64,000 nt of DNA from Deltaproteobacteria bacterium HGW-Deltaproteobacteria-19 (GTDB taxonomy: Bacteria > Desulfobacterota > Syntrophia > Syntrophales > PHBD01), in the NCBI GenBank assembly GCA_002841865.1, contig PHBD01000011.1, forward strand, positions 124,001 through 188,000, written 5' to 3'. Below, piece after piece: positions 50,232 to 57,491 of this stretch. Every line of letters begins with the position of its first letter. Within the stretch, counting starts at the first letter, position 1. The position numbers and the translations under genes were made by a program. The notes beneath the pieces are model-generated. The model saw only the letters and a program-made list of their open reading frames with translations, ran no database searches and was not told where the DNA came from.

Positions 50232-51062
50232 ATGAAAAACATCAGGATGCCCTTTCTTGCCACAGTTGCCCTGCTGGCTTTCTCAGCAGGGCTCATTGGA
50301 TGCGGCATGAAAGAGCTGTACAGTGCGTGGCATGATCGACCGGCCACTGTCAACGGGGCGGATGAGTGGCTGGAATGGAATCGGGCGCTTCACTGGCTGC
50401 CCGGGGAAGAGGTTACGGTCGGGCTTCTGAACGACGACAGGATGCTGTATCTGCGCCTTTCTACGCGGAACAAGGCCATCCAGCGGCAGGTTCTGACCGC
50501 CGGCCTGACGGTGTGGTTCGATGAGACGGGGGGCCGGAATGAGGCCTACGGGATTCGATTTCCGCTTCCGAACCGCGGGATGGAGCCGGGGGTCGAACGC
50601 CGGCCCTCCATGGAAAGAGACGGTGAAGCACCGATGGATCCCTCCGACGGTCCCGATCCGTTCCGGAAGGTGTCGCAAGGGGACATGGAAATCACACGTC
50701 CCGGGAAAAACGAGTACAGCGTGATCCTGGCGGGCAATTCCGCCCCGAACGGCATCCGGTGCCGGATCAGGAACGTACAGGGCTCCCTCGTGTACGAACT
50801 TCGGGTGCCCCTGATCCGGGATGAAACTTCACCCCTCGGTATTGCAGCACACAAACCGAAAACGATCGGCATCGGCCTGATGGCCGGAGAGAAAACGCGG
50901 TCTTCGCAGAGCTGGGGTGGAGACGGGGGCGGCGGTCGCGGCGGAAGAGGGCCGGGTGGGGGAGGGCCGGAAGGAAGGGGAGGCGGGATGGGCGGCGGAG
51001 GGCGGGAGAAACCGCAGTCGATCGACCTGTGGCTGAAGGTTCATCTGGCAGAGCGTCCATAG
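50232..51062 (+). CDS. Lipoprotein with Gly-rich C-terminus, possible carbohydrate-binding (DOMON-like) fold
   Basis: A 276-aa protein. The signal ends in LIGC, a lipobox. After it, DEWLEWNRALHWLPGEEVTV and the strand-rich region to about residue 200 (LYLRLSTRNKAIQRQVLTAG, LTVWFDETGG) look like a beta-sandwich of the DOMON/CBM9-like type, as in proteins near envelope stress regulators. Residues about 218-262 are a low-complexity Gly/Arg stretch (GGGRGGRGPGGGGPEGRGGG). It lies 85 bases after the Pro/Cys-rich gene and is probably in the same regulated set. AGGGAGAGGCG lies before the ATG. Function unknown. Confidence 0.7.
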   Translation: MKNIRMPFLATVALLAFSAGLIGCGMKELYSAWHDRPATVNGADEWLEWNRALHWLPGEEVTVGLLNDDRMLYLRLSTRNKAIQRQVLTAGLTVWFDETGGRNEAYGIRFPLPNRGMEPGVERRPSMERDGEAPMDPSDGPDPFRKVSQGDMEITRPGKNEYSVILAGNSAPNGIRCRIRNVQGSLVYELRVPLIRDETSPLGIAAHKPKTIGIGLMAGEKTRSSQSWGGDGGGGRGGRGPGGGGPEGRGGGMGGGGREKPQSIDLWLKVHLAERP

Positions 51063-52140: not shown

Positions 52141-53283
52141 ATGTCACGGACGGAAGAAATCAGGAACTACGCCCTGGACCTCGGCTACAGCCGTGTGGGA
52201 ATCACGACGGCGGAACCGTTCCCTCTTTACGCCCAGGCCCTGGAGGAGCGCTTGCCGGACTACGACTGGGCGGCCGACAGCGGCCTTCGCCTCCGGCGCG
52301 CTGTCAATCCGCAGGACCGCCTGCCGGGAGCCCGATCCATCATTGTTGCGGTGTACGATTATTTCCGGGAGCGCTTTCCGGAGAACCTGGTGGGCAGGAT
52401 CGGGCGTCTCTATCAGTCGCGCTCGTACATCGAGCCGCCGACGCGGCTCGGGGGTGCCCGGGTGGAACTCATGCGCCGGTTCCTGGAGTCGAAGGGGATG
52501 CAGGTCGGGCGCTGGTACATGATCTCCTCCGGTGTCCCTGACCGCCTCGCCGCCGTCCGCGCCGGGCTCGGACAGATCGGCCGCAATACCTTCTTCTGCG
52601 CCCCGGGCATCGGAACCTTCTTGATTGTCCATACCTTCATCGTGGACGTCGAGCTGGAATACGATTCGCCTGCCGAGGGGACGCACTGTCCGCCTGACTG
52701 CCGGCTGTGCATCGAAGCCTGTCCGACGGGAGCCATCGTCGCCGATTATCGCCTGAACCCGCGCCGGTGCCTCACCTTCAGCCACGTTGTCAACGTCCAC
52801 GGCTTTCAGAACACCTCCCCGTACATCGATCCGGAGATCCGGCCGAAGATGGGAAGCTGGATCCACGGCTGCGATCTCTGCCAGGAGGCCTGCCCGCGCA
52901 ACCGGGACAAGCTGAAGGCGAAGCTGCCGGAGAACGCCTTCCTGGAAGAGGCGGCAAAGCACTTCAGTCTGACGGGACTGCTCAAGATGGACGGGGAGTT
53001 CGAAAAGAAGGCCGTTGCCCCCTTCCTTTACACGTATATGAGGGACCGGAAGTTCTTTCAGCGAAATGCTGCGGTGGCGATTGGCAACAGCGGCGACCCG
53101 GACATGGTTCCCTGTCTGGCACAGGCCCTGGAGGATCCGGAGGAACTGGTGAGGGCGCACGCCGCCTGGGCGCTCGGTCGGCTGGGAAGCGCCGAGGCGC
53201 GGCGCGTTCTGGAAGCCGGCCTTCCCCGCGAAACAGGATCACAGGCGGCTGTAGAAATCCGCGCGGCCCTGGAAATGGTTTGA
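52141..53283 (+). CDS. QueG-like Fe-S reductase with C-terminal HEAT repeats
   Basis: A 380-aa cytosolic protein. The N-terminal part resembles epoxyqueuosine reductase/corrinoid reductive-dehalogenase-like proteins (MSRTEEIRNYALDLGYSRVG, VGITTAEPF; the loop GRNTFFCAPGIGTF). Two 4Fe-4S clusters are served by Cys183, 187, 190, 194 (HCPPDCRLCIEACPTGA) and by Cys244, 247, 251 plus Cys210. From about residue 300 the chain has HEAT-like repeats (RNAAVAIGNSGDPDMVPCLA, AHAAWALGRLGSAEARRVLE). That fits QueG, whose C-terminus also has HEAT repeats, but the N-terminus differs enough that a paralogue with another substrate is possible. Confidence 0.8.
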   Translation: MSRTEEIRNYALDLGYSRVGITTAEPFPLYAQALEERLPDYDWAADSGLRLRRAVNPQDRLPGARSIIVAVYDYFRERFPENLVGRIGRLYQSRSYIEPPTRLGGARVELMRRFLESKGMQVGRWYMISSGVPDRLAAVRAGLGQIGRNTFFCAPGIGTFLIVHTFIVDVELEYDSPAEGTHCPPDCRLCIEACPTGAIVADYRLNPRRCLTFSHVVNVHGFQNTSPYIDPEIRPKMGSWIHGCDLCQEACPRNRDKLKAKLPENAFLEEAAKHFSLTGLLKMDGEFEKKAVAPFLYTYMRDRKFFQRNAAVAIGNSGDPDMVPCLAQALEDPEELVRAHAAWALGRLGSAEARRVLEAGLPRETGSQAAVEIRAALEMV

Positions 53284-53783
53284 TGGCCTTCCGGTCGCAG
53301 CGGGCATCCGGTCTTCAGGAACCTGGAACTTGACGGCCGGCGATGGGGCCGGACGCCGACTCACGTCAATTTTCAGGGACAATGCGGCGGGCCTCTTCCA
53401 ACCATCCGGGATAGCAAGGGATCATGCCGTCATCTGCCCCCGTTGTTCGTTGACACAACCGGCCACCCACAATATAGGTCTTCCTCTGGTGTCACTGCTG
53501 GCATTGTTCTTGTCATTCTTCGTTGCCGAATGGAGTGCTCTCTCATTCCTGCTCATTCCTGTTTTCTACTCCTGGGAACGCGTACCCGCCTGAAATCGTC
53601 CTTTCCCGCCACAATGAAAAACATGCCTTGACACCGCCCATGTATCCGCCTATATTCCCAGGAAAACGAAAACGATACGCAGAGTACAAATAATGGTATT
53701 AACATGTTGAAATAATTGATTGTAAAATAATGATTTGTGTTGAAACACGATGACGGTTCAAATCGCCTGAAAGGAGGCTCACA
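53284..53783. other. 500-base intergenic region upstream of the TetR gene
   Basis: No gene is supported. One open frame at 53330-53593 has a hydrophobic C-terminal stretch but no ribosome site or recognisable fold. The last 140 bases are clearly AT-rich, unlike the surroundings, and probably hold the TetR promoter and operator; I see no strict palindrome to name as the operator. Confidence 0.5.
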
Positions 53784-54377
53784 ATGAAACCGGACAACCT
53801 GGAAGCCATATTGACAACGGCCAGGAAGATGTTTGCCCGATACGGTCTCAAGAAGACAAGCCTGGACGAGATCGCCCGGACGGCAAGGGTGGCAAAGGGA
53901 ACCATCTATAATTATTTCGGGAGCAAAGATCAGGTGTACCTGGGGGTTCTGCGGGGGGAGGCGGAAGAGATTGTAAGAAACGTATTGTCGGCCATGGAAA
54001 AGGTGGCTGCGCCGGAAGAGAAGCTGGCCGCCTTCGTGCGCGCGAAATTTCGCTTTATGCGGCAGGCGATCAACATCCTGAATCTGGACCGGGAGGGAAT
54101 CGAGAAATACCTGCCGGCAGCCGAGGGCATCCGGAACGAATTTTTTGAACAGGAGGTAAAGATCATCGACGCCATCCTGAGGCAGGGAGCGGAGAAAGGG
54201 GTCTTCCGCCTGGGCGACGCCTTTCTCACCGCCAAGGCCATCGGTTACGCCTTGCGAGGGTTCGAGCTGAACTGGCTCATCCAGGAGAGCGAGGAACGAA
54301 TCGAGCAGTATCTTGCCGAGCTCATGAACCTTCTCTTTTTCGGGATCATGGCCCAGCCTCGCGCCGGGGAGCGATAG
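53784..54377 (+). CDS. TetR family transcriptional regulator
   Basis: A 197-aa protein. The N-terminal HTH is standard: MFARYGLKKTSLDEIARTAR followed by VAKGTIYNYFGSKDQVYLGV. The C-terminal ligand domain is helical and gives no ligand clue. AAAGGAGG lies before the ATG. A glycosyltransferase-papain fusion follows 6 bases after its stop, so they are probably one operon, and the regulator may control it. Confidence 0.93.
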   Translation: MKPDNLEAILTTARKMFARYGLKKTSLDEIARTARVAKGTIYNYFGSKDQVYLGVLRGEAEEIVRNVLSAMEKVAAPEEKLAAFVRAKFRFMRQAINILNLDREGIEKYLPAAEGIRNEFFEQEVKIIDAILRQGAEKGVFRLGDAFLTAKAIGYALRGFELNWLIQESEERIEQYLAELMNLLFFGIMAQPRAGER

Positions 54378-54383
54378 GAAATC

Positions 54384-56891
54384 ATGGACAGCCGAATTGC
54401 ACCTGTTGCCGATACGGAGATTCAGAGCATCTCTGCCGTTTCGGCCGATCGATGGCTCCAGGACTGGTTGATACCCGTCCCCCTTGCGGCAGTGGGGTCC
54501 TGCCGGGGCCGGAAGAGGAAAATCGTCCTTTTCTATTCGTCCATCGGCCAGGGGCATATCAGTGCGGCCCGCTCCATCGAGCAGGAGATTCTCAAGCAGG
54601 ACCCCTCGGCCATCGTTCTGGTGAAGGACATCCGCGAGTTCATGGACCCCGTCCGGCGCATGCTCGATGAAAAACTCTATTGGTTTGTCGCGAAAAACCT
54701 GCCGGGATTTTTTGACGGCATGTTCCGCTCCCTCCAGGAGCAGGGGAATCACGCCGGTTCACTGGCGTGGCTGCCGAACGATTACCCGGAAACGAAGGTC
54801 CTCGATTTCCTTCGGGACGAGGCGCCCGATGCCGTCCTGGCCACCCACTACGGCTCTGCGCAGGTGCTCGGGACGCTCAGGGAGAAGGGATTTCTCCCGG
54901 GTGTCAGGATCGGCTGGCTCCACACCGACTATTTCGAGGGTTATTTCCCCCGGATCTCCAAGCGCATCGACCGGACGTTCCTGGCCCATCCCGAACTGGA
55001 AAAGCGCTGGCTGTCGGCGGGTGTCCCGCCCGAGCTGATTGAAATCACGGGAATGCCCGTGAACGTTACAACCGGCGATTCGCAGGGTCGCATGGAATGC
55101 CTCGCGCGGATCGGCTTCGATCCGGGCACGAATACAATCGCGATCGCCAGCGGGAAAGAAGGCGCAGGGGACTTTGCCGGGGTCGTCATGAGCCTTGCCT
55201 GGGAAACGCGGGGACCTCTGCAGATCATTGCCGTCTGCGGCCGCAACGAGAGGCAGCGACGCGCCCTGCAGGGCATCCGGGATCGGATTCCGGAACGGGT
55301 GAAGCTGGAGATCCTTGGCTACATTCCCCAGGCGGACCTGGTTGCTTTCATCCAGGCCTCCGATCTGTTCATCACCAAGGCAGGCGGCCTGTCCCCGGCG
55401 GAGGCATTCACGCTGGGGAAGCCGACCATCCTGCTCGACGTGATCGGCGGCCACGAACGGGAAAATGCGGAGCTGTTTTCAAGGCTGGGAATGGCCGAGT
55501 TCAATCGGGATGTAAAAGATGTGGGCGCCCAGGCCATGGCCGTTCTCTCCGATCCGAAGAAGCAGGCCTCGATGCTGGCGGCTCAGCGGGAGTTCCGGGC
55601 CAACATGGACATCGGAAAAATCGCGCGCTTCGCGCTGGATCCGGACGCCCGGGAACGACGCGTGAGGCGGGGGTATGGAATCGAAAAGGGCATCCCCGCC
55701 GGCGAAGTCCGGAGCGCCCTGGCGCGGCTCGAATCCGACGCCCCTGCCGATTTGGAGGTCCTGCTTTCCTATTCGTCCTCGACCGTCGATGAACGCATCG
55801 TCCGGGAAAATCCGTTCGGCCACATCGCGATCCGTGTCGGCGACACAGTATACAGCTCCAACCACATTGCCCCTCCGGACCGGAATCCCCCTCTGCTTCA
55901 GCACCTGAACCTGGAACAGTACCTTTTCGGGGTCGAACCGCCTTCGGACAGCCAGGTCCACACGAGCACCTATGGCATGTCGTACGGGCGGGAAACGCTG
56001 GGTTTCCGCATCAGCGGGGTGACGCCCCTGTCGCGAGAGCGGATGCATGCCGAGGCTGCGAGGATCGAGCAGGAGTTCCGGTCGGGGAAGTGCCGATGGG
56101 ACAGGAGCAGATCGAATTGCGCCGATTTCGTGGTGCGGATCCTTCGCGCCGGTGGATTTGACGCCCAGTCCATGGAGGGGCCGGCCGGCATCGTTACGAT
56201 GCCTCTCGATGTCTTTGACAGGGTTCGCACCGAATTCGAGGGCGATCCGTACGTGCGGACGGAACTCGTGGCCTACCGGCGTCTCCCCGGGTCGCAGGCC
56301 TCCTACCGCTTCTCGCGATTTCCCCTATCCCTGGGACAGCCGGTCCGGGCCCTGGCGCAGGTCCTCTCGCGCGATGCCCCGGACAGGATCGAAAAGGCCG
56401 TCGGGAGACAGCTGACCGGATACATGGGGGACGAGCGGGTCTTTTATGAAGATCTGAGCGCCCGCCTGTCCGCTTCGGCCCTCGACGATCTCGGTCGTTC
56501 CGGGCATCGTGCCCCGGGCATGGAGCGAATCCTGTTCGAGGAAGCCATGCGGCTGCTGGTCGAGCAGAAGAGCCTGCAAATCGATGCCTTCAGGAGAAAG
56601 TATACGGAGCATGCGGAAAGAGAGCTTCGCTATTGGATCGAGCGGGGCTGCGAGGTGTCGAGAATCGCGACGGAGCACGCCGAAGGAATCCTGGCAGGCG
56701 GTGGCGCGAAGAAACTTCGGAAGTCTCGTAGAGATCAGCGCCAATCCGTTGCGGGCTTTGGATACAAAGAGGGGCAGGCGGATGAATCGCCCTCACGAAC
56801 ATCGACGTTCCGGGCAAACTCCGAATCATCGGCGCGGGAAGGCGGGGGCAACGGCAACGGCAGTTGGCTGCGAAAAACGGGGAGCCCCTGA
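54384..56891 (+). CDS. MGDG synthase/MurG-like glycosyltransferase fused to a permuted papain-fold domain
   Basis: An 835-aa protein with two recognisable parts. Residues about 45-425 are a GT28-type glycosyltransferase as in diacylglycerol glycosyltransferases: KIVLFYSSIGQGHISAARSI at the N-domain, LIEITGMPVNV, and the nucleotide-sugar site AGGLSPAEAFTLGKPTILLD followed by GHERENAELF. Residues about 450-620 carry NPFGHIAIRVGDTVYSSNH with His480 and SNCADFVVRILRAGGF with Cys579. That His-before-Cys order is the permuted papain (LRAT/NlpC-like) arrangement. The last 200 residues are helical and of unknown fold. No signal peptide is seen. A glycolipid-making role for the first part is family knowledge; what the second part acts on is unknown. 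Confidence 0.8.
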   Translation: MDSRIAPVADTEIQSISAVSADRWLQDWLIPVPLAAVGSCRGRKRKIVLFYSSIGQGHISAARSIEQEILKQDPSAIVLVKDIREFMDPVRRMLDEKLYWFVAKNLPGFFDGMFRSLQEQGNHAGSLAWLPNDYPETKVLDFLRDEAPDAVLATHYGSAQVLGTLREKGFLPGVRIGWLHTDYFEGYFPRISKRIDRTFLAHPELEKRWLSAGVPPELIEITGMPVNVTTGDSQGRMECLARIGFDPGTNTIAIASGKEGAGDFAGVVMSLAWETRGPLQIIAVCGRNERQRRALQGIRDRIPERVKLEILGYIPQADLVAFIQASDLFITKAGGLSPAEAFTLGKPTILLDVIGGHERENAELFSRLGMAEFNRDVKDVGAQAMAVLSDPKKQASMLAAQREFRANMDIGKIARFALDPDARERRVRRGYGIEKGIPAGEVRSALARLESDAPADLEVLLSYSSSTVDERIVRENPFGHIAIRVGDTVYSSNHIAPPDRNPPLLQHLNLEQYLFGVEPPSDSQVHTSTYGMSYGRETLGFRISGVTPLSRERMHAEAARIEQEFRSGKCRWDRSRSNCADFVVRILRAGGFDAQSMEGPAGIVTMPLDVFDRVRTEFEGDPYVRTELVAYRRLPGSQASYRFSRFPLSLGQPVRALAQVLSRDAPDRIEKAVGRQLTGYMGDERVFYEDLSARLSASALDDLGRSGHRAPGMERILFEEAMRLLVEQKSLQIDAFRRKYTEHAERELRYWIERGCEVSRIATEHAEGILAGGGAKKLRKSRRDQRQSVAGFGYKEGQADESPSRTSTFRANSESSAREGGGNGNGSWLRKTGSP

Positions 56892-56894
56892 GCC

Positions 56895-57491
56895 ATGATG
56901 GATGTTGGAATGATCGTGTCCCACATCGGCACTGTGGGCGGCATCTTCCTGGCCTGCGCGCTGGGAATGCCGGTCCCGGAGGAAATCACCCTGCTTTCGG
57001 CCGGTGTCCTGGTATCCGCAAAGCAGCTCCCGCTCTGTCTTGCCGTAATCCCGGGCCTGGCGGGGATTTTCATGAGCGATACGATCTTGTTTTTCCTGGG
57101 GCGGCGCCTCGGCCCGCGGGTCTTTCGACTGCCTCTCCTGCGATCCGTCCTGACGGCGGAGCGGGTCCGATGGGCCGAGTCGCGCATTCACAGGAACGGT
57201 CCGCTCGCCTGCTTCGTCGGGCGCTTCCTTCCCGGCCTGCGCGTCGTCATCTTCACCACGTCCGGTGCCCTCGGAATCAAACCCCGCGTCTTCCTGGCCG
57301 TCGACGCCGCGGCGGCGGTGATCGTCGTTTCGCTGTGGGTTGCCGCCGGCCTCTGGATGGGATCGAATTTCATCGATGCCACCCGGCATGCCGAAGAAAT
57401 CAAGACCGTCATGATTTTCGTTGCAGTCCTGATCCTTGTGATCAACGGCAGCCGGCGTCTCCTGACCCGGAACGGGAGGGAGCGGTCGTAG
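56895..57491 (+). CDS. DedA family membrane protein
   Basis: A 198-aa inner-membrane protein of the DedA/VTT class. It has FLACALGMPVPEEITLLSAG in the first re-entrant segment, then MSDTILFFLGRRLGPRVFRL, and the characteristic FVGRFLPGLRVVIFTTSGAL with the conserved Arg and Gly-x-Arg, followed by a last membrane helix. DedA proteins are proposed lipid scramblases/flippases. Placed 4 bases after the glycosyltransferase fusion, it may move the glycolipid made by it. Confidence 0.88.
   Translation: MMDVGMIVSHIGTVGGIFLACALGMPVPEEITLLSAGVLVSAKQLPLCLAVIPGLAGIFMSDTILFFLGRRLGPRVFRLPLLRSVLTAERVRWAESRIHRNGPLACFVGRFLPGLRVVIFTTSGALGIKPRVFLAVDAAAAVIVVSLWVAAGLWMGSNFIDATRHAEEIKTVMIFVAVLILVINGSRRLLTRNGRERS

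Follow-up and report, generated by a model that had tools for sequence, protein, structure and literature searches.

A glycosyltransferase fused to a predicted permuted papain-like domain recurs in mobile gene clusters and may act on membrane glycolipids

A stretch of 64,000 nucleotides from Deltaproteobacteria bacterium HGW-Deltaproteobacteria-19 (contig PHBD01000011.1, positions 124,001 to 188,000; hereafter the window) contains one open reading frame (ORF) in which a glycosyltransferase is joined to a C-terminal domain with a predicted permuted papain-like fold. A reading made from the letters of the DNA (the sequence-only reading) had picked out this ORF at 54384-56891, its motifs, and its TetR and DedA neighbours, and all of them were recovered in the ORF list and by Pfam. 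The motifs present were SIGQGHISAA (His58), GGLSPAEAF (Glu340), NPFGHIAIRV (His480) and SNCADFV (Cys579). The gene, the parts of its product and its two immediate neighbours are as follows.

54384..56891, + strand: gene for the fusion protein, 835 amino acids, ATG start; the architecture recurs in 36 further records
54510..55655, + strand: GT28 glycosyltransferase of the GT-B fold, monogalactosyldiacylglycerol (MGDG) synthase/UgtP type, residues 43-424 (Pfam; model against MGD1)
55671..56303, + strand: permuted papain-like, Lnb/DUF4105-related, putative lipid acyltransferase/hydrolase domain, residues 430-640 (AlphaFold (AF2) model, VIA-align, Lnb_N profile)
56304..56888, + strand: tail with a conserved YRFSRFPLSLGQPxR stretch and then long helices, residues 641-835 (alignment, model)
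53784..54377, + strand: TetR-family regulator (Pfam TetR_N, 55.8 bits), whose 3' end lies 6 bp upstream of the fusion gene
56895..57491, + strand: DedA/VTT-family membrane protein (Pfam VTT_dom, PF09335, 59.5 bits, cut-off 33.9), starting 3 bp downstream of the fusion gene

The MGDG synthase-type glycosyltransferase that the sequence-only reading had assigned to the first half was upheld by Pfam, by the fold and by the motifs. MGDG_synth (PF06925) was matched at residues 58-226 with 55.4 bits (cut-off 25), and residues 252-401 matched both Glyco_tran_28_C (PF04101; 30.4 bits, cut-off 22) and Glycos_transf_1 above their cut-offs. The fusion gene gave the single MGDG_synth match in the whole genome. 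The full-length AlphaFold model (predicted local distance difference test score, pLDDT, 75.6) had the GT-B fold, and it was superposed on Arabidopsis MGD1 (4wyi) with a Z of 30.8 and a root-mean-square deviation (rmsd) of 2.9 over 321 aligned residues, compared with a Z of 25.9 for the next, unrelated family. NCBIfam gave UgtP (NF010135, diglucosyl diacylglycerol synthase) at 118.4 bits; since this is far below the equivalog cut-off of 500, the domain is UgtP-like rather than UgtP. Its family membership suggests that the domain glycosylates diacylglycerol. Two positions were assigned by alignment with MGD1.

54555..54557, + strand: His58, candidate catalytic base, aligned with the GGGH histidine of MGD1 (phmmer, 4wyi); histidine in 31 of the 31 sequences that cover it
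55401..55403, + strand: Glu340 of GGLSPAE, nucleotide-sugar motif, aligned with the glutamate of the MGD1 motif; present in 34 of 34

For residues 430-640, no relevant Pfam family was found at an E-value up to 10 among 31 aligned members, and NCBIfam and PADLOC returned nothing better than chance. A profile search of the Protein Data Bank (PDB) with the C-terminal domain returned only short chance matches of about 30 residues, to designed proteins and haemagglutinin. When residues 425-775 were modelled with AF2, the pLDDT was 72.4, with the core elements at about 80-96 and the loops weak. As determined with VIA-align, the top four rows were all permuted papain folds, each aligned over 135-150 residues of the domain: TseH (6v98; Z 9.4, 145 aligned, rmsd 3.6), followed by E. 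coli YiiX (2if6; Z 8.8), a B. cereus protein (3kw0; Z 8.6) and the RID domain (5xn7; Z 8.1). From row 5 onward, the rows with a Z of at least 3 covered the C-terminal long helix only, apart from row 24 (rmsd 22.6). Residues 430-640 are thus predicted to adopt a permuted papain-like fold, in which a histidine strand precedes a cysteine helix, the order expected for such folds. The candidate catalytic residues are listed below.

55821..55823, + strand: His480, candidate catalytic histidine, 34 of 34, at the start of strand 478-485; aligned with the FGH histidine of Lnb_N
55860..55862, + strand: Asn493, candidate third catalytic residue, 34 of 34, just past strand 488-492; aligned with the N/S of YaiNfgA in Lnb_N
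56118..56120, + strand: Cys579, candidate nucleophile, 34 of 34, at the N-terminus of helix 579-589; aligned with the NC motif of Lnb_N

N578 and A580, which flank Cys579, were likewise invariant over the 34 sequences, which come from several phyla. The second domain with its His480...Cys579 arrangement, as proposed by the sequence-only reading, therefore stands on the model, VIA-align and the invariance; the model resembles permuted papain structures rather than a non-enzymatic fold, and Asn493 supplies an invariant candidate for the third catalytic residue.

To place the domain among its possible relatives, profiles were compared that had been built from 18 PF13387 and 18 PF05708 sequences taken from genomes. 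Against Lnb_N (PF13387), hhalign gave a score of 26.9 and an E-value of 0.0049 with the 351-residue query, and an E-value of 0.0027 over 130 columns with residues 430-640. The Lnb_N scores of 26.4-26.9 exceeded both the best shuffle (21.2; 0 of 100 reached them) and the best control profile (20.9; 0 of 32), the controls being 30 neighbour-family profiles plus the glycosyltransferase and tail parts of the same protein. The alignment paired His480 with the FGH histidine, Asn493 with the N/S of the following strand, Cys579 with the NC cysteine, and Pro607-Asp609 with PxD. The profile of Peptidase_C92 (PF05708, YiiX) scored 16.5, which was reached by 17 of 100 column shuffles and so is not significant. 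DUF4105 is among the newly recognised papain-like families, and in core NlpC/P60 proteins a GD motif sits on the first strand (PMC10318531). In our alignment the first strand reads ELLLSYS, and the GD motif of the core NlpC/P60 cluster (PF00877, C92, C97) is absent. Since the domain lacks this motif and falls below the PF13387 cut-off, it appears to be a new Lnb-related permuted papain family that belongs to neither. DUF4105 is Lnb, the lipoprotein N-acyltransferase of Bacteroides, and the permuted group with LRAT, YiiX and Tox-Act1 works on lipid acyl groups (PMC12994826). The domain would add to this lipid-acting group a family for which there is no Pfam or NCBIfam model.

The tail is partly at variance with the relatives. 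The segment 640-835, which the sequence-only reading had set apart as a third part, is native in part only: in the window copy the final ~55 residues (56720-56891) diverge from every relative and look frame-shifted; by eye, stretches like the expected helical tail occur in the other two frames there. These residues are probably non-native, through decay or mis-assembly of the metagenome-assembled genome (MAG). Both catalytic domains are untouched by the divergence.

The fusion was found in 37 records, and the 36 besides the window show 43-69% identity where they align over the full length, so that other genomes clearly carry the fusion as well. The records comprise 33 loci from a scan of 84,980 species genomes, all of which encode the fusion, together with the window, G253 and two plasmids (G008, G143 and G471 were counted once with L030, L028 and L057). 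Two of the loci, L029 and L052, are cut by contig ends. The Rhodoferax OTU1 assembly (L041:6829-9047) has a frame break within the glycosyltransferase domain, and Zoogloea oleivorans has part of a second C-terminal domain at the edge of a contig (L074, G535:C84). The taxon labels are Thermodesulfobacteriota, Pseudomonadota, Acidobacteriota, Myxococcota, Elusimicrobiota, Verrucomicrobiota and Bacteroidota, with further MAG labels of Bacillota and Synergistota that may be mis-binned. The fusion is rare: it was present in 3 of 155 genomes of the class, in 3 of the 395 sampled from the phylum (the source genome and two others) and in 1 of 369 Gammaproteobacteria (the centre genome), and it was absent from the sister species. 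Neither the 369 Gammaproteobacterial genomes (E <= 0.01) nor the class and phylum samples contained a stand-alone C-terminal domain, the matches being full-length fusions only, and no relatives of the fusion were found in the viral contigs searched. The plasmid copies are labelled at NCBI as 'UDP-N-acetylglucosamine--LPS N-acetylglucosamine transferase'. Literature searches turned up no account of this fusion.

The fusion moves horizontally. In its protein tree, orders and classes were intermingled, and protein identity was 96.7% for Halomonas and Sulfuricella and 99% for Zoogloea oleivorans and Aromatoleum toluolicum. At the DNA level, Halomonas and Pseudomonas shared 92.6% identity over 16.8 kb. 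Zoogloea dura and Aromatoleum tolulyticum (L049/L050) were 100% identical over 16,789 bp, which could mean that the DNA was transferred very recently or that one assembly is contaminated. Conjugative plasmids of Polaromonas naphthalenivorans CJ2 and of Polaromonas sp. JS666 carry two of the copies. Many of the hosts are named or known hydrocarbon degraders, such as Hydrogenophaga aromaticivorans and Zoogloea oleivorans (PMC8993774).

In the two Polaromonas plasmids the genes run in the order TetR, a hypothetical protein, DUF883, DUF6781, AarF/UbiB, the fusion, patatin, a polyprenyl-synthetase-like protein, and the adaptor, permease and TolC of a resistance-nodulation-division (RND) pump, and several of the cluster genes overlap by a few bases. 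As counted by tblastn over 35 loci, TetR was present at 24, RND components at 23, UbiB at 20, patatin at 15, the polyprenyl-synthetase-like protein at 12 and DedA at 4. Dominant among the contexts is the company of TetR, UbiB, patatin, the polyprenyl-synthetase-like protein and a tripartite RND pump, which lay outside the view of the sequence-only reading, and TetR-fusion-DedA is the Syntrophales arrangement. Since RND genes adjoin the fusion also in Acidobacteriota (L044, L047) and Alphaproteobacteria (L058), the link between the two is more than one recent island. DedA directly follows the fusion in L027, L028, L030, L059 and the window; the pairing on which the sequence-only reading had built is real and recurrent, but it is lineage-specific (4 of the 33 genome loci, plus the window). 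The polyprenyl-synthetase-like proteins of the RND clusters at L060:18442-19248 and L036:5873-6670 (~266-269 residues) were barely above the Pfam cut-off, had no clear DDxxD by eye and stand beside a UbiB-type atypical kinase; the protein may be a non-catalytic isoprenoid binder. In a close relative, a 371-residue 'EWWYFNGHL' protein (L027:418-1533), lipocalin-like of the CrtC/AttH kind by eye, is encoded immediately upstream of the fusion.

In the window, the nearest NCBIfam model to the TetR protein was Bacillus FadR (72.7 bits, below the cut-off of 200), and the TetR that precedes the fusion in L028 was 59% identical to it. The DedA protein was UptA-like, yet under the UptA cut-off of NCBIfam. 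A reading of the locus as a defence system was dropped, as PADLOC gave only a trivial match to the TetR gene. Upstream of TetR, promoter-like matches were seen at 53628-53656 and 53699-53728, which are consensus matches only, together with a palindrome.

53685..53724, no strand: imperfect AT-rich palindrome with 22-nt arms, 73% complementary, upstream of TetR and overlapping a promoter-like site; candidate auto-regulatory operator of a TetR-fusion-DedA operon

Further upstream, 52141-53283 encodes an iron-sulfur protein that resembles QueG and ends in HEAT repeats (matches to Fer4_16 and HEAT_2; QueG DUF1730 weak), and 50232-51062 encodes a 276-residue protein with a lipoprotein-like N-terminus, a Gly/Arg-rich tail and no matched Pfam family.

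Taken together, we regard it as an evenly balanced proposition that the fusion is a bifunctional enzyme of the cytoplasmic face, which would glycosylate diacylglycerol and transfer or remove an acyl chain, as part of a unit that is induced by stress and remodels the membrane. The glycosyltransferase domain would move a hexose from a uridine diphosphate (UDP)-sugar onto diacylglycerol. With His480 activating it and Asn493 orienting it, Cys579 would then accept an acyl chain of a phospholipid; the chain would either be passed to the new glycolipid, giving an acylated glycosyl-diacylglycerol and leaving a lysophospholipid, or be released by hydrolysis. The TetR regulator would sense an amphiphile or hydrocarbon, the product would change membrane packing and permeability, and lipid or solvent would be carried outward by DedA in Syntrophales and by the RND pump in other lineages. 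Acyl transfer or hydrolysis by a Cys-His-Asn set is suggested by the fold and the relatives, while the gene context suggests a function under stress from solvents or hydrocarbons. Because the domain is fused to a glycosyltransferase, a glycolipid head group is preferred as the acceptor. In Comamonadaceae-type members, a single hydrophobic segment with arginines after it lies at the N-terminus, which, with a glycosyltransferase that uses a UDP-sugar, points to both domains lying on the cytoplasmic side. A bolder and rather doubtful version is that the protein is a single-chain acyl-glycolipid synthase whose Cys-His-Asn acyltransferase comes from the Lnb lineage, and that it stands at the centre of a mobile remodelling and efflux island, controlled by TetR and exchanged among bacteria to survive hydrocarbons; after glycosylation of diacylglycerol, the new head group would be acylated or its acyl chains swapped.

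Several points weigh against an acyl-acting enzyme of glycolipids. Where Lnb has been characterised, its substrates are exported lipoproteins rather than glycolipids, so the acceptor in the fusion is a guess. The Lnb link, weak to moderate in strength, is one profile comparison, with controls, and PF13387 was not matched by any of the 31 members in hmmscan at an E-value up to 10. The domain model is of moderate quality (pLDDT 72), its 466-476 loop is below 50, and a Foldseek search of the PDB with it gave no match at E <= 0.001.

Other explanations were weighed on the same evidence. The C-terminal domain could be an A-type phospholipase or deacylase that trims phospholipids or the glycolipid and leaves lysolipids to the pump, DedA and patatin. 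The patatin-type lipase at 15 of the 35 loci fits such a pathway; however, the best profile relative, Lnb, is a transferase, and a phospholipase residing on the same chain as a lipid synthase would have to be tightly controlled, so we consider this unlikely while keeping it in view. It is more improbable that the domain acylates a protein, as Lnb does lipoproteins and RID does GTPases, the glycosyltransferase merely targeting it to the membrane. RID (5xn7), whose activity we take to be protein-acylating, was among the top fold rows. The substrates of Lnb are lipoproteins (PMC12994826). Nevertheless, an enzyme that uses a UDP-sugar implies the cytosol, where the N-termini of mature lipoproteins are absent, and no conserved protein partner suits as the acceptor.

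We likewise give a small chance to a C-terminal domain that has lost catalysis and serves the glycosyltransferase as a lipid-binding or regulatory module. Papain-like folds include non-enzymes, and the loop before His480 was poorly modelled; against this, the invariance of His480, Asn493 and Cys579, with that of N578 and A580, argues that catalysis is retained. A chimeric ORF or an annotation artefact, to which the frame-shifted 3' end of the window copy might point, is next to inconceivable and was ruled out by recurrence, the same two-domain frame being open in more than 30 other records. For the bifunctional enzyme, the position of the fusion on mobile clusters beside solvent-type efflux pumps suggests an undescribed form of membrane remodelling under chemical stress.

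Compared with known systems, the fusion shares the MGDG_synth domain, the GT-B fold, the catalytic histidine and the GGxxPxE motif with MGD1/MGDG synthase and with UgtP/YpfP, the processive diacylglycerol glucosyltransferase of GT28; however, it is 21-22% identical to MGD1, and neither MGD1 nor UgtP carries a papain-like C-terminal domain. The collinear motifs FGHxxxR, Y.xN, NC and PxD are shared with Lnb/DUF4105, which works on the periplasmic side, whereas the fusion is joined to a cytosolic glycosyltransferase and no export signal was seen in it. As in YiiX/YaeF (Peptidase_C92), TseH (DUF6695), LRAT/HRASLS and Tox-Act1, the histidine precedes the cysteine, and the fold matches YiiX, 3kw0 and TseH with a Z of 8.6-9.4, but the fusion, set against this permuted NlpC/P60 group, has no GD motif and no significant profile similarity to C92. 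We know of no member of these four families that is fused to a glycosyltransferase. The plant protein AGAP1 is a separate patatin-type protein, unlike the fusion, whose putative acyl-acting domain has a predicted papain fold and is joined to the synthase. The proposed acylated glycolipid has a precedent, since AGAP1 and AGAP2 carry out a stress-induced acyl transfer to the head group of glycosyl-diacylglycerol (galactolipid) in plants (PMC7956594). For bacteria, the bifunctional enzyme predicts a step of head-group acylation or deacylation coupled to glycolipid synthesis. Solvent efflux operons of the TtgABC/SrpABC type combine a TetR regulator with a tripartite RND pump in hydrocarbon degraders, and the fusion clusters are alike in this; to our knowledge, those operons are without the lipid-enzyme set of the fusion, UbiB, patatin and polyprenyl-like proteins. 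In degraders of oil and of benzene, toluene, ethylbenzene and xylenes (BTEX), the mobile RND-pump cluster is a specific candidate mechanism of membrane adaptation.
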